Positions 16,341 to 20,279 of a stretch of DNA of 25,622 bases are shown here, piece after piece. The stretch comes from a virus. Location of the stretch: IMG/VR virus record IMGVR_UViG_3300037961_004635, positions 1-25,622 of that record. One strand, given 5' to 3'. The stretch's first letter is position 1; each line of letters opens with the position of its first letter. Made by a program: the position numbers and the translations under genes. The notes under the pieces are model-generated. The model saw nothing but the letters and a program-made list of their open reading frames with translations. It was not told the DNA's origin and did no database searches.

Positions 16341-16862
16341 TTAGTCCATTAGGGCGGTGTTGATGAGGAGTCGCGCAGCCCACTCACCTGTGGCTCTACG
16401 TTGAGCAATGGTCGAGCAAGGCATGAGGTAGATAGGTACGTCGTATTCTAAAGTAAGCCGCATCAGGGAGTCAACAGCTATCCCCGGATTGAAGGGAGGT
16501 CCGGGAATGTGGATCTTGGCTGACTGGATCTTGTGTATGTCTCCCTCGAACAGGAGGTAGGGCTTGCTGAACTCGTCCCTGAGTCGCTTGAGGCAATCCA
16601 CGAACTTGCGGCGGCCATCGTTGGTGAGGCAGTTCTGGGCTATCTCGCTGATGGAACCCTTGCGTTCTATTCCCCCCACGGTGGGGTCACCTTTGAGGAG
16701 GTAGTCGGCGGTGTTGAGGCGGGCCTTCTCCGTGTGGATGCGGATGGTTGTCTGCTTCTTGTGGGTGGGCATCTTACTTGGGTCAAGGAAGACGATTGTG
16801 GAGGGGAAAGCTAGAGGCTTTTTCTCCCTGTCATCCACCACGATGGTGATCTCTTTCTTCAT
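16341..16862 (-). CDS. ERCC4-type nuclease, 173 aa
   Basis: The ERCC4 (XPF/MUS81-type) nuclease motifs are visible: VVDDRE at residues 8-13, an Asp in TADYLL (D53), and GIERKGS at 65-70 with the catalytic ERK. These enzymes cut branched DNA structures at ss/ds junctions. The protein is a stand-alone domain with no helix-hairpin-helix tail. It follows the polymerase gene after 31 bases; no ribosome binding site is visible in front of the ATG, although the N-terminal VVDDRE motif requires a start at or close to this position. It probably resolves replication or recombination intermediates before packaging. Confidence 0.88.
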   Translation of the reverse strand: MKKEITIVVDDREKKPLAFPSTIVFLDPSKMPTHKKQTTIRIHTEKARLNTADYLLKGDPTVGGIERKGSISEIAQNCLTNDGRRKFVDCLKRLRDEFSKPYLLFEGDIHKIQSAKIHIPGPPFNPGIAVDSLMRLTLEYDVPIYLMPCSTIAQRRATGEWAARLLINTALMD

Positions 16863-16893: not shown

Positions 16894-19374
16894 TCAAGAG
16901 ACCTGCTCGACTTCGTAGAGCACCGGGACAGTGCGCTGAAAGATCTGCTGCAGCTGATTCCAATAACCACCACCATGAACAACCAGATCGACAGCATTCG
17001 AGATCATTTCCTCAAGGTCAGAGACCTGCTCCGTGGGGCAGTCGAAGTATACCGCGTCATAAACCTGAAGGAACATGAGGGGCCGTCTGCCTACACGGTT
17101 CATTGACCCCATCATTCTATTTAGGTTGTGCTGGATTTGAAGAAGAACATTGCCAGCTGTCGTCTGAATGGGGAAGTTTACTACCTCATTGAGCAGTGAC
17201 TTGAAGTTCTTGTTGTAGACAGGAGCCACGATTCGATTGCGATCCCACTTGGTGTGGTCAACTTCGAAGCTGGTAAAGGTGCGTGACTGTCCGGTTATCG
17301 GAAGCACGAGGGTGCCTTGGGTTTCTGCAACACAGGCAAGTTCGTACTGCCAAGAGCAGAGGCCGGGTCGTTGGAGGAACCGGGTCTTGACGATGTTCTC
17401 GAAGAAGGGAATGGGCATGAGGTCGCCACACATTTCGACGACGGTGCGCTGCATACGTGAGGCTGATGCCAAGAAGAGGTCGGCAAAGTTCAAGGTCTTG
17501 CCGATCTGTCGCCACTTGGATTTGAACTGAGGGTCGGACTGAATGTCTTCGCCAAAGACTGACACCGTTCTGTCGGTGTGCAGGTCGAGACCTTCGGTGA
17601 ATGATTGGATCAGCTTGTCATCACCTGACAGCAAGGCGGCAACACGAAGCTCGATCTGTGACAAGTCGAAGCCAATGATCGAACCGTTAGTCCAACGGGA
17701 CCTCATCGCTTTCTTGATGGGGGGAGGAAAGGTCTGAGCTGATGGACTCTTGCAGGTGATACGGCCTTGTATCGTCCCGCCTTCTGATCCTGTGTCCTTG
17801 GGCAGGGATGGAACTATGTACCACGTCGGGTGAGCTAAACCAATCTCCTTCGAGAACGGAATAAGTACCGACGACTTGTCCTGTGGTCTGTTCCTCCTGT
17901 GCTTCAGCAGAGGGTACAGGTAGGTCGAGATCAACTTCTGTGCCGAGGCATGGTACTTCACTACCTTGATCGCAGACTGCAGTCGATGATCCTTCGGCAG
18001 GTAGGATGAGAGTAGGTTGCGGTTGTCCTCGGACCATGAGATCTTTTTCGTCTTGGGTGTAAGGGAAAGCAGGGGGTGGTTGAGGATGTCGATTGAGGAG
18101 TGCTTGTCGATCTCTTCAATGATCGTGTCAATGAACTCCTGCTTTGACTTGGCTGAGCCGGTTCCTTCGAGCACAAGATTGTACTTGCTCTTGGATACTC
18201 GCGCTGCGATCTCACACTTGAAAGTCAGGTTCTTTAGCTGCTTGTTGAGCAGGTCAAAGGACATGGGGATACCCGACTCTGACATGGTGATGCATGACCA
18301 GATGGTGTCGGAGTAATGCTCGATACTTTGGGGGGAGAGCTTACTCTCTTTCGTCTCGGCTAAACTCTTCATCAAGGTTCTCGGAGATTGTGCAAGCTGC
18401 GAGTGCGATGAAGTTGAGAGTGAACTTGCTGATGTCGATGGAGGTGGCAGGCAACTCGTCGAAGATTGTGTGGTCTCCACCGATGGGCTTGGCCCAGAGC
18501 TGAGGGTGAGCGAAGACTTCCTTGAAGCACTGCTTGAGGTCCTTGGCTCTGAGTCGGAAACTTTCTCCGTTGAAGTTGAGGGAGAAGGTAATGTCTCTAT
18601 CGAAGAGATGGACTGGGTGTTGGTCGGGCATGGCTGATCTTTCAAGATTCTTTTGGCAAGCTCAGAGACACACAACATTGTATTGTGGGTGTCTTGCGCG
18701 TTGTAGGAAATAATCTCTGCGTCTTTAGGGCTCTTGAAGCGACCGTCTTTTATTGTCTGTTCGTAGGTGTGGGTGCCAAGAACCGGACCCAGAGACTTGA
18801 GTGACTTCTCTGGGCGCAGCTCGTTGTGGATGTAGTTGACGACCGACAGATCAATGAGTGTGTGTCGGCCATCAAGGACAAACCTGAAGTCTGGAAGCTG
18901 ACGAAGGTACTGGATGTCAAACTGTAGGTTCATCCCAAGGATGGTATTTGAGTGTTGGAGCCACTTCCTCAAGAGGGTCCGGTGGGATTCGACTGACATC
19001 TGGAAGACCATGCTCGTCGCGGGTGATAATGCCGCTAGTGTAGAGCAGCTCCAAGGGGCTGAGTCCTGTCTGGTTTGCTCTTGACATGAGGAAGTCTGCA
19101 ATCTGTTCGAGTCTGTCACTGACTTGGTCTTGGAAGTCGATGTCGAGTTCGTGATCGTAGTCTTCGAATCCGGGAAGGAAGAGTTGCATCGGGGGTCGTA
19201 CTCCGGCAAGGTGATTGCGACAGTGAGAACAAGATCATCTCTTGTCACACCGTCAGTGTGCATGGACCTCAAGGGATTGAACAGCTTCTGTTCGGGCAGA
19301 AGCTTGCCTTCACTGTTGGCATGGCACGCGCCATACGATTCGATGTCGAGTGAGATTACCCTTGGGCTTGTCAT
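16894..19374 (-). CDS. polA: Family A DNA polymerase with 3'-5' exonuclease domain, 826 aa, carrying two low-complexity insertions
   Basis: Start ATG has GGAG six bases upstream. Exonuclease motifs: Exo I D10-I-E12, Exo II N149...D153, Exo III Y224-N-A-Q-D228, all acidic residues intact, so proofreading is expected. Polymerase motifs: A at D570-LSQIELR, B (O-helix) R622...K626...F630, where F630 matches E. coli Phe762 and F634 replaces Tyr766, and C with V-Y-D773-A in place of the usual VHDE, keeping the catalytic Asp but losing the adjacent Glu. Residues about 64-115 and 248-338 are Ser/Thr/Pro-rich and unlike any polymerase domain; each coincides with a small same-strand frame in the -1 frame. 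The rest is continuous family A sequence. It is the main replicative polymerase of the phage, cotranscribed with uracil-DNA glycosylase upstream and a nuclease downstream. Confidence 0.93.
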   Translation of the reverse strand: MTSPRVISLDIESYGACHANSEGKLLPEQKLFNPLRSMHTDGVTRDDLVLTVAITLPEYDPRCNSSFPDSKTTITNSTSTSKTKSVTDSNRLQTSSCQEQTRQDSAPWSCSTLAALSPATSMVFQMSVESHRTLLRKWLQHSNTILGMNLQFDIQYLRQLPDFRFVLDGRHTLIDLSVVNYIHNELRPEKSLKSLGPVLGTHTYEQTIKDGRFKSPKDAEIISYNAQDTHNTMLCVSELAKRILKDQPCPTNTQSISSIETLPSPSTSTEKVSDSEPRTSSSASRKSSLTLSSGPSPSVETTQSSTSCLPPPSTSASSLSTSSHSQLAQSPRTLMKSLAETKESKLSPQSIEHYSDTIWSCITMSESGIPMSFDLLNKQLKNLTFKCEIAARVSKSKYNLVLEGTGSAKSKQEFIDTIIEEIDKHSSIDILNHPLLSLTPKTKKISWSEDNRNLLSSYLPKDHRLQSAIKVVKYHASAQKLISTYLYPLLKHRRNRPQDKSSVLIPFSKEIGLAHPTWYIVPSLPKDTGSEGGTIQGRITCKSPSAQTFPPPIKKAMRSRWTNGSIIGFDLSQIELRVAALLSGDDKLIQSFTEGLDLHTDRTVSVFGEDIQSDPQFKSKWRQIGKTLNFADLFLASASRMQRTVVEMCGDLMPIPFFENIVKTRFLQRPGLCSWQYELACVAETQGTLVLPITGQSRTFTSFEVDHTKWDRNRIVAPVYNKNFKSLLNEVVNFPIQTTAGNVLLQIQHNLNRMMGSMNRVGRRPLMFLQVYDAVYFDCPTEQVSDLEEMISNAVDLVVHGGGYWNQLQQIFQRTVPVLYEVEQVS
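18341..18631 (-). CDS. Small protein nested inside polA, -1 frame, 96 aa
   Basis: This frame runs through polymerase residues 248-345, the linker between exonuclease and polymerase domains. It has a natural composition (strand HLFDRDITFSLNFN, helix DLKQCFKEVF, Trp, Phe, Cys) while the polymerase frame here is a Ser/Thr/Pro string. By hand count about 52 of its 96 codons end in C, versus 13 ending in T. Those C residues fall at the second position of the polymerase codons and by themselves produce Ser/Thr/Pro/Ala. Its stop lies where recognisable polymerase sequence (KLSPQSIEHYSDTIWS) resumes. The ribosome binding site is weak (GAAAGA). No family recognised. It looks like an inserted small gene that both frames read through. 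Confidence 0.65.
   Translation of the reverse strand: MPDQHPVHLFDRDITFSLNFNGESFRLRAKDLKQCFKEVFAHPQLWAKPIGGDHTIFDELPATSIDISKFTLNFIALAACTISENLDEEFSRDERE
18917..19189 (-). CDS. Small acidic protein nested inside polA, -1 frame, 90 aa
   Basis: The ATG at 19189 has GGAG 11 bases upstream. The frame covers polymerase residues about 62-153, between Exo I and Exo II. Its first 60 residues look like a genuine acidic helical protein (DFQDQVSDRLEQIADFLM), with about half the codons ending in C, while the polymerase frame is Ser/Thr-rich. In the last 30 codons the bias switches: the polymerase frame (MVFQMSVESHRTLLRKWL) regains C/G-ending codons and the small frame loses them. So the first two thirds look inserted and the tail is read out of polymerase sequence. 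Same relative frame as the other nested gene. No family recognised. Confidence 0.6.
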   Translation of the reverse strand: MQLFLPGFEDYDHELDIDFQDQVSDRLEQIADFLMSRANQTGLSPLELLYTSGIITRDEHGLPDVSRIPPDPLEEVAPTLKYHPWDEPTV

Positions 19375-19377
19375 TCT

Positions 19378-19587
19378 TTACTCCAGATCAAACAGTCCTG
19401 CATCATCATTTGACTTTGCCAGCTTCTCGCTATGGAACGCCTCTTCCCAAGGGTTAACGTCATCCTCCTGAGGAAGAACGTGCTTAGGATTCTGGGGCTC
19501 TTGGCGGTACCACGGTAGGCTTGCTTGGGACTGGGATGGTTCCTTCGAGGTAGGAGTGGAGGAGGGCGAGGTGGTCTGCGACGGCAT
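19378..19587 (-). CDS. Small protein overlapping the glycosylase end, 69 aa (or frameshifted tail of it)
   Basis: The last 48 residues (from LPWYRQEPQNPKHVLP to the acidic end GLFDLE) look like real protein and end 3 bases before the polymerase start. The only ATG that gives a sensible protein lies at 19587 inside the glycosylase gene; there the first 20 residues are Ser/Thr/Pro-rich, the expected shadow of the glycosylase frame, and no ribosome binding site is seen. Either it is translated by reinitiation, or the glycosylase is extended by a +1 frameshift near its C-terminus. The long frame extending upstream to 19950 is not taken as coding. Function unknown. Confidence 0.5.
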   Translation of the reverse strand: MPSQTTSPSSTPTSKEPSQSQASLPWYRQEPQNPKHVLPQEDDVNPWEEAFHSEKLAKSNDDAGLFDLE

Positions 19588-20230
19588 GGATGAGGTTAGG
19601 ATTTCGAAGCACTGCAGCGGGATGGTAGGTGGCAAAGAGATTGCACTGTCTTCCGGCTGCTTCGAGCTGACCCTCAGCATCACGTCCGACAAGATCAAAA
19701 GGCAACGACTGAGCTTTGAAAGATCCTGACAGATTGATTCGGGAGGGCAGTAAGGCTGATGAGAGGGAGTCAACTGCTGCTGCTCCACAACACAGCCAAG
19801 CAACTTTTGCATCTCGTCGAGCACGGACGATGTTGTTTGCGTCCACAATAGTGTGCTCGAAACAAGACTTGAAATGCTTTCGACGGGGGGGACTTGCACT
19901 TGGGGTCCAACATCGAGCAGCGTTTGCAAAGTATATGCAGGCAACTTCATTGAGCTTTGATCCCTTGAGGTAAGGACCCTTGAGCAGCTGGCCTGAGGGT
20001 CCGATGAATGGTTGGTTTTTCTTGTCCTCTTGGTAGCCCGGATTCATACCGAGCACGATGAGGATGGGTACATCTTCGAATGGATCTCTTGATTCGTGCC
20101 ACCATACAGTAGGCACGCCGGGGTTGGTTGCTTCTTCGTGCAGCTCACACATGGTGCAATCTGGTCGAGAAGGAAACTGATCCAGATGTATGTTGAGTTT
20201 GTCTTCGTAGACTCTCTTCATGTACGACAT
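19484..20230 (-). CDS. Uracil-DNA glycosylase, FeS family (family 4-like), 248 aa
   Basis: ATG at 20230 with AAGGGAG six bases upstream is preferred over a GTG at 20269. Motif 1 is GMNPGYQEDKKNQPFIGPSG (residues 61-80, the family 4 GxxPGxxED...PFxGxxG pattern), motif 2 is HPAAVLRNP (203-211). Cys25, Cys28, Cys107 and Cys124 have the spacing CxxC...C-x16-C of the 4Fe-4S cluster in this family. The enzyme removes uracil from DNA, opening base excision repair. Encoding it just before the phage polymerase suggests that uracil is kept out of phage DNA or that uracil-containing host or competitor DNA is attacked. The last 14 residues (Pro-rich) overlap a different frame and look unconstrained. Confidence 0.9.
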   Translation of the reverse strand: MSYMKRVYEDKLNIHLDQFPSRPDCTMCELHEEATNPGVPTVWWHESRDPFEDVPILIVLGMNPGYQEDKKNQPFIGPSGQLLKGPYLKGSKLNEVACIYFANAARCWTPSASPPRRKHFKSCFEHTIVDANNIVRARRDAKVAWLCCGAAAVDSLSSALLPSRINLSGSFKAQSLPFDLVGRDAEGQLEAAGRQCNLFATYHPAAVLRNPNLIHAVADHLALLHSYLEGTIPVPSKPTVVPPRAPES

Positions 20231-20255
20231 GAGATCTCCCTTGTAAGCAGTGCGA

Positions 20256-20279
20256 GAAGCCGCCCACACCGGCGGCTTC
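20256..20279 (-). other. Stem-loop upstream of glycosylase gene
   Basis: GAAGCCGCC (20256-20264) pairs perfectly with GGCGGCTTC (20271-20279), 6-base loop, placed between the stop at 20289 and the AAGGGAG of the glycosylase gene. No T tract follows. Confidence 0.55.

Follow-up and report, generated by a model that had tools for sequence, protein, structure and literature searches.

The DNA polymerase gene (polA) of the uncultivated phage recorded in IMG/VR as IMGVR_UViG_3300037961_004635 very likely contains a real, selected dual-coding arrangement, in which a small gene is read in the -1 frame of the DNA that encodes a spacer of the polymerase. The arrangement is present twice in polA, once in the linker between the exonuclease and polymerase domains (site A) and once in a loop of the exonuclease (site B), and further lineages carry it at site B. 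That the small genes are expressed, and that they have a function, is inferred. The window analyzed here is the whole 25,622-nucleotide stretch of that record, and positions are those of the window.

The polA gene occupies positions 16894 to 19374 on the minus strand and is an 826-codon ORF for an 826-residue family A DNA polymerase with an N-terminal 3′-5′ exonuclease fold. Membership of family A is supported by both the polymerase domain profile and the fold. The Pfam family DNA_pol_A matches residues 440-795 (2.4e-24), and the AlphaFold model (pTM 0.81, from an alignment of 40 sequences) has a Pol I fold, with Pol I, Bst and Klenow structures as its closest matches in the PDB. The enzyme also shares the exonuclease motifs DIE, GMNLQFD and YNAQD with the Pol I/Klenow type, but differs from it in its two inserts with nested genes and in motif C, which is YDA instead of HDE. 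This Tyr-Asp-Ala motif (LQVYDAVYFD in the window), in place of the usual His-Asp-Glu, is nearly invariant across the lineage. Three stretches of the model fall below a pLDDT of 50: residues 66-101, between exonuclease strands 49-57 and 118-125; residues 249-331, which separate the last exonuclease helix from the polymerase domain; and a short segment at 527-534. The two long stretches, which are predicted to be disordered, coincide exactly with the two inserts. The neighbors of polA are an upstream uracil-DNA glycosylase (UDG) superfamily gene (19484 to 20269, minus strand; Pfam UDG, 1.6e-12) and a downstream ERCC4-type nuclease-like gene (16341 to 16862, minus strand; PHROG 3490, 2.9e-5). The 3′ part of the UDG gene is shared, in a different frame, with a 190-codon ORF at 19378-19950 on the minus strand. 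The tail of this ORF (PWYRQEPQ...) is conserved in two related contigs, L004 and L005, in both of which it leads into a protein of about 90 residues (...RTHWxVT...), and the UDG gene may therefore end in a further overlap.

Gene A lies at 18341 to 18631 on the minus strand and runs for 96 codons (96 residues) from an ATG (18629 to 18631, minus strand) to a TAA in the -1 frame of polA. The polymerase frame reads the same DNA (18358 to 18633, minus strand) as residues 248-339, a lineage-specific Ser/Thr/Pro insert in the exonuclease-polymerase linker. A first-pass annotation, made without database searches, had described this 96-codon gene, the 52 of its 96 codons that end in C, and the Ser/Thr/Pro-rich residues 248-338, and its numbers were right. 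Those 91 polymerase residues include 31 Ser, 13 Thr, 11 Pro and 3 Ala, with Ser, Thr and Pro making up 60%. The annotation had also stated that the polymerase frame remains open only if the small gene has no NTA codon before A or G and no NTG codon before A. This rule is arithmetically right and is satisfied by gene A, which contains no such context; of its 29 codons whose second base is T, all have a pyrimidine in the third position except the start ATG and a single TTG. The second nested ORF, gene B, had been missed.

To place the insert in an evolutionary context, scans of IMG/VR yielded about 65 polymerase relatives, with one more in a Myxococcales MAG contig; all of these sequences are metagenomic contigs. 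In the window and in contigs L002 to L005, 131-136 residues separate the exonuclease motif YNAQDTHNT from the polymerase motif YSDTIW, compared to 41-46 residues in all others. The gap at residues 248-338 that the first-pass annotation had proposed looking for is thus found: about 60 relatives lack both the site A insert and the start codon, and no -1-frame ATG or GTG was seen at site A in the relatives examined outside the five-genome clade. Conversely, all five insert-bearing genomes contain a gene A homologue, with identities to gene A of the window of 99% (L002 and L003), 39% (L004) and 24% (L005), and residues W46, D53, F57, P61 and F70 are conserved among them. In all three lineages, the start codon falls on the opening residues of the insert and the stop falls where conserved polymerase sequence resumes, so that insert, start codon and ORF co-occur exactly. 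The annotation would have been refuted by a small frame broken by stops beside a persisting Ser/Thr/Pro stretch, which was not observed; the frame is open and homologous in every polymerase with the Ser/Thr-rich stretch. In a tree built without the insert columns, the five insert-bearing genomes form one clade with full support, and a single gain of gene A is therefore the simplest history. Gene A is nevertheless known from five contigs only, three of which are about 98% alike, and the direct count of changes is small (7 changes). A different insert of about 45 residues, between RRNKP and PTWY, is present in the polA of nine other relatives (L007, L008, L010, L036, L038, L041, L045, L064 and L071); its composition in the polymerase frame is ordinary, in contrast to the low-complexity inserts with nested genes.

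Given that all sequences are metagenomic contigs, an assembly or sequencing artefact, in which paired indels make a false frame, must be considered. This explanation is all but excluded, because five contigs, with polymerase identities of 98%, 68% and 59%, share the insert and its ORF, and because relatives have no sequence at all at the insert, leaving no true frame to be restored.

The arrangement is repeated in the exonuclease loop. Gene B (18917 to 19189, minus strand; 90 codons, 90 residues) begins in this loop and is likewise in the -1 frame of polA. Its DNA is read by the polymerase frame as a Ser/Thr-rich insert between two exonuclease beta strands (residues 62-117; 19024 to 19191, minus strand), and its last 35 or so codons extend into conserved polymerase sequence. 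A GGAG Shine-Dalgarno-like site (19201 to 19204, minus strand; -6.1 kcal/mol), located within the LPEYDPR codons of polA, is conserved in the window, L002, L003 and L004, and the gene B homologue of L004 is 43% identical. The site B insert is a gap in L005 and most relatives, and an in-frame ATG at this site occurs only in insert-bearing genomes and in a 5-codon remnant in L005. There (polymerase residues VTLPKEETCIS), a Shine-Dalgarno site, the ATG and a 5-codon ORF remain while the insert is absent, and this short ORF could be the relic of a lost gene or the seed of one. The exonuclease loop is also enlarged, with -1-frame ORFs, in L030/L061 and in a set of eleven loci that we call group iii (L048, L050-L058 and L063). 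In group iii, site B encodes a protein of 57-61 residues behind an invariant AAGGA(N6)ATG or GTG. Profile comparison detected no homology among the site B ORFs of the three groups. Within group iii, identity between the polymerases of L048 and L058 is 93% over part of the exonuclease and 63% over the C-terminal part; this contrast points to recombination within polA, and L048, L055, L057 and L058 are likely mosaic polymerases.

Two sets of recoding experiments indicate that the openness of both frames is not incidental. When gene A was recoded synonymously, using corrected or own codon usage, the probability that the polymerase frame was open was 0.06-0.07 for the window, 0.037 for L004 and 0.002 for L005. 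When the polymerase frame was recoded, in a test that had one reference gene out of frame, the probability that gene A was open was 0.005, 0.003 and 0.023, respectively. Both frames are therefore open over the overlap beyond the expectation from synonymous recoding. The length of the ORFs was not used as evidence, since long -1-frame ORFs arise by chance in these genes: another -1-frame stretch in the same polA is open for 142 codons (residues 420-562), and in the GC-rich polA genes of L016 and L032 the -1 frame is open for 349 and 555 codons.

Substitution patterns identify the frame under constraint. Among the window, L002 and L003 (the trio), variable sites were divided into those that are silent in polA and alter the nested frame (NS) and those that are silent in the nested frame and alter polA (SN). 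The NS:SN ratio was 1:5 in gene A and 2:5 in gene B, compared to 49:6 in the polA flanks (Fisher p = 4e-4 and 1.2e-3, respectively; p = 6e-6 for both genes combined). Changes that alter gene A and are silent in polA are depleted relative to the flanks, indicating that the small frames are the constrained ones. The claim of the first-pass annotation that the small frame is under constraint is thereby supported, both by this pattern and by codon usage, as the nested frame is closer in codon usage to the host polymerase than the overlapping insert is in nearly all sequences. The contrast with the flanks was used because NN/SN on the close pair alone was unspecific, with the control ORF at residues 420-562 also giving 0.11 (p = 0.03). 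In group iii, the nested dN/dS over the first 44 codons at site B is 0.05-0.19 (p 4e-5 to 2e-7), with weaker constraint in the polymerase frame (0.11-0.41), while the -1 frame in the polA flanks of the same pairs has a dN/dS of about 1. The divergent gene A pairs are near saturation; the nested-frame alignment gives them a nested dN/dS of 0.62-0.73 (p 0.015-0.045), but the result is not significant on the polymerase-frame alignment. The selection test was also not significant for gene B between the window and L004. Third-base identity at conserved four-fold polA codons was uninformative, as matches inside the insert are mostly chance.

The main alternative is that the low-complexity Ser/Thr/Pro linker is the only real feature and that the -1-frame ORF is its by-product. 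In its favor, Ser, Thr, Pro and Ala codons open the -1 frame and give it a normal-looking composition, as codons with C in the middle never produce a stop there, and long spurious -1-frame ORFs are common in these genes. However, recoding that preserves the polymerase leaves the nested frame open in just 0.3-2% of trials, polA-silent changes are depleted in gene A, the start and stop lie at the insert borders in all three lineages, and the nested homologues align across lineages. In addition, a control ORF lacks this pattern. This ORF, in L006/L011 (site C, polymerase residues ~320-415), was considered as a third nested gene and rejected, as its substitutions follow the polymerase frame (NS 16 to SN 5.5). 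Together, these observations disfavor the linker-only reading and make it very unlikely.

Our favored reading remains a nested gene overlying a polymerase spacer, and the composition of that spacer reflects both frames. The first-pass annotation had proposed that the C bias of gene A mechanically creates Ser, Thr, Pro and Ala in the polymerase frame, and this held in part. Recoding gene A with its own codon usage predicts 49% of these residues in the window insert, compared to the 62% observed (p ~0.002), and the proportion of gene A codons ending in C is 0.54 compared to 0.41 expected under recoding (p ~0.002). In L004 and L005, the excess of these residues is not or barely significant. The C bias of gene A thus accounts for most, but not all, of the linker composition. 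The difference between 62% and 49% suggests that the C bias of gene A is strengthened by the polymerase frame, and the likely, though inferred, cause of the remaining excess is that the polymerase frame is kept open and hydrophilic.

What genes A and B encode remains a matter of inference. The gene A protein, modelled alone (pLDDT 75, pTM 0.60), is predicted to form a beta hairpin, a helix and a long C-terminal helix, and fold searches with this model returned no match at E <= 1e-3. Searches of Pfam, PHROG, NCBIfam and PADLOC families gave no significant match for either gene, with few weak hits, and neither the insert nor the nested ORF matched an intein or homing-endonuclease domain in Pfam, NCBIfam or PHROG. 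Homology between A and B was not detectable by profile comparison. The search for stand-alone homologues that the first-pass annotation had suggested for the 96-residue protein found none for A or B in the fetched loci, IMG/VR or the phage collection. Two candidate matches were rejected: a tblastn match of the L004 gene A to MT837777 falls on a protein that is nucleotidyltransferase-like by sequence and is a chance match, and a match of gene B to MT837010 covers only the C-terminal 28 residues (E 0.07), with no polA-like ORF seen there. It is possible, with low confidence and as a default guess, that A and B are small proteins expressed early alongside the replication genes, with an accessory or host-modulating role.

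How the nested frames would be translated is suggested by their start sites. All nested starts have Shine-Dalgarno energies between -5.4 and -8.8 kcal/mol except gene A of the trio, which in the window genome is preceded by a weak AAAGA-type site (-0.9 kcal/mol); several other gene starts in the window are as weak. The gene A homologues of L004 and L005 have AAGGA/AAAGGA sites (-5.4 to -6.1). A different route, programmed -1 frameshifting that yields an exonuclease-A fusion, could be proposed because every nested ORF studied is in the -1 frame. This is very unlikely: reading of the upstream DNA revealed no conserved slippery heptamer, most nested starts have Shine-Dalgarno-like sites, and both L004 gene A and the group iii gene B have a -1-frame TAA just 1-3 codons ahead of their start. 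Internal initiation is favored because of these upstream TAA codons. In the resulting model, one mRNA would carry two or three start sites. Initiation at the polA ATG would produce a polymerase with one or two disordered loops, and initiation at the internal sites of the same mRNA would produce B and A. Gene A would be a small orphan gene with its own ATG, held by purifying selection, and the polymerase frame would be its passenger, needing only to stay open and hydrophilic and forming a disordered tether of about 90 residues between intact domains. The polymerase frame would be kept open because C or T nearly always occupies the third position of gene A codons whose second base is T. Gene B would repeat this arrangement in the exonuclease beta-hairpin loop. 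We consider this dual-coding explanation, of orphan genes in the -1 frame with the polymerase spacer as passenger, very likely, though there are no expression data; translation in vivo and the tolerance of the enzyme for the tether are inferred.

The origin of gene A is less certain. The first-pass annotation had inferred that a small gene was inserted into the linker, but with no stand-alone source gene detected, insertion cannot be told apart from growth in place. One variant is that the linker grew first and gene A then originated de novo within it by overprinting, instead of arriving ready-made. The lack of a stand-alone homologue in anything searched favors this variant, as does site B of L005, whose Shine-Dalgarno site, ATG and short ORF are a possible relic or seed. 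Codon usage speaks against it, as the nested frame fits better than the insert does, the reverse of what is expected for a young overprinted gene (PMC8227390), and on balance we lean slightly away from it. A bolder reading of the whole is that surface loops of the polymerase are recurrent cradles for new genes. The same exonuclease loop would have acquired out-of-frame small genes, by birth or by capture, in at least two to three independent events, and the inter-domain linker once. Each event would have forced the polymerase to develop a disordered spacer as a side effect, which inverts the usual course of overprinting. We offer this reading tentatively, as the evidence falls just short of favoring it.

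The polA lineage provides a natural series in one conserved enzyme, from no insert, through a 5-codon remnant start, to one and then two nested genes. As this series has clear outgroups, it makes it possible to trace how overlapping genes are born or captured and how disordered spacers originate. It also exposes phage coding content that is missed by gene callers that forbid nested ORFs.

Nested genes are well known in phages, including B in A and E in D of phiX174 and Rz1 in Rz of lambda; the phiX174 overlaps also appear in the reference list of PMC8227390. As in these cases, a small gene with its own start lies in another frame of a larger gene. The overlapped genes of phiX174 and lambda are not known to have gained an insert to hold the nested gene, whereas polA did. 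To our knowledge, no insert harboring a nested gene is known in a phage DNA polymerase, and no nested gene in such a polymerase was found in the literature searched, which was open-access only. The closest likeness is to the P/S overlap of hepatitis B virus (HBV), in which a variable spacer separating functional domains of the viral polymerase is also translated in a second frame. The polA overlap shares this defining feature, lying in a predicted disordered spacer between domains (pLDDT <50, residues 249-331). In the modular model of HBV, preS1 is ancestral and the polymerase spacer is the de novo frame (PMC9093120, PMC8227390), and this direction, with preS1 older, matches the reading given here for polA and gene A. 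Membership of the hepadnaviruses is ruled out, as the polymerase matches Pfam DNA_pol_A and neither A nor B matches any family. Unlike HBV, the enzyme is a phage family A DNA polymerase and not an animal-virus reverse transcriptase, the small ORFs are unrelated in sequence and fully nested, and two separate sites in one gene are involved. By analogy, then, the arrangement would work like the HBV polymerase spacer/preS overlap without homology to it. In HBV, the direction was argued from codon usage because both frames share the same phylogenetic distribution (PMC8227390), whereas in polA the many relatives without the insert make the direction of change visible.
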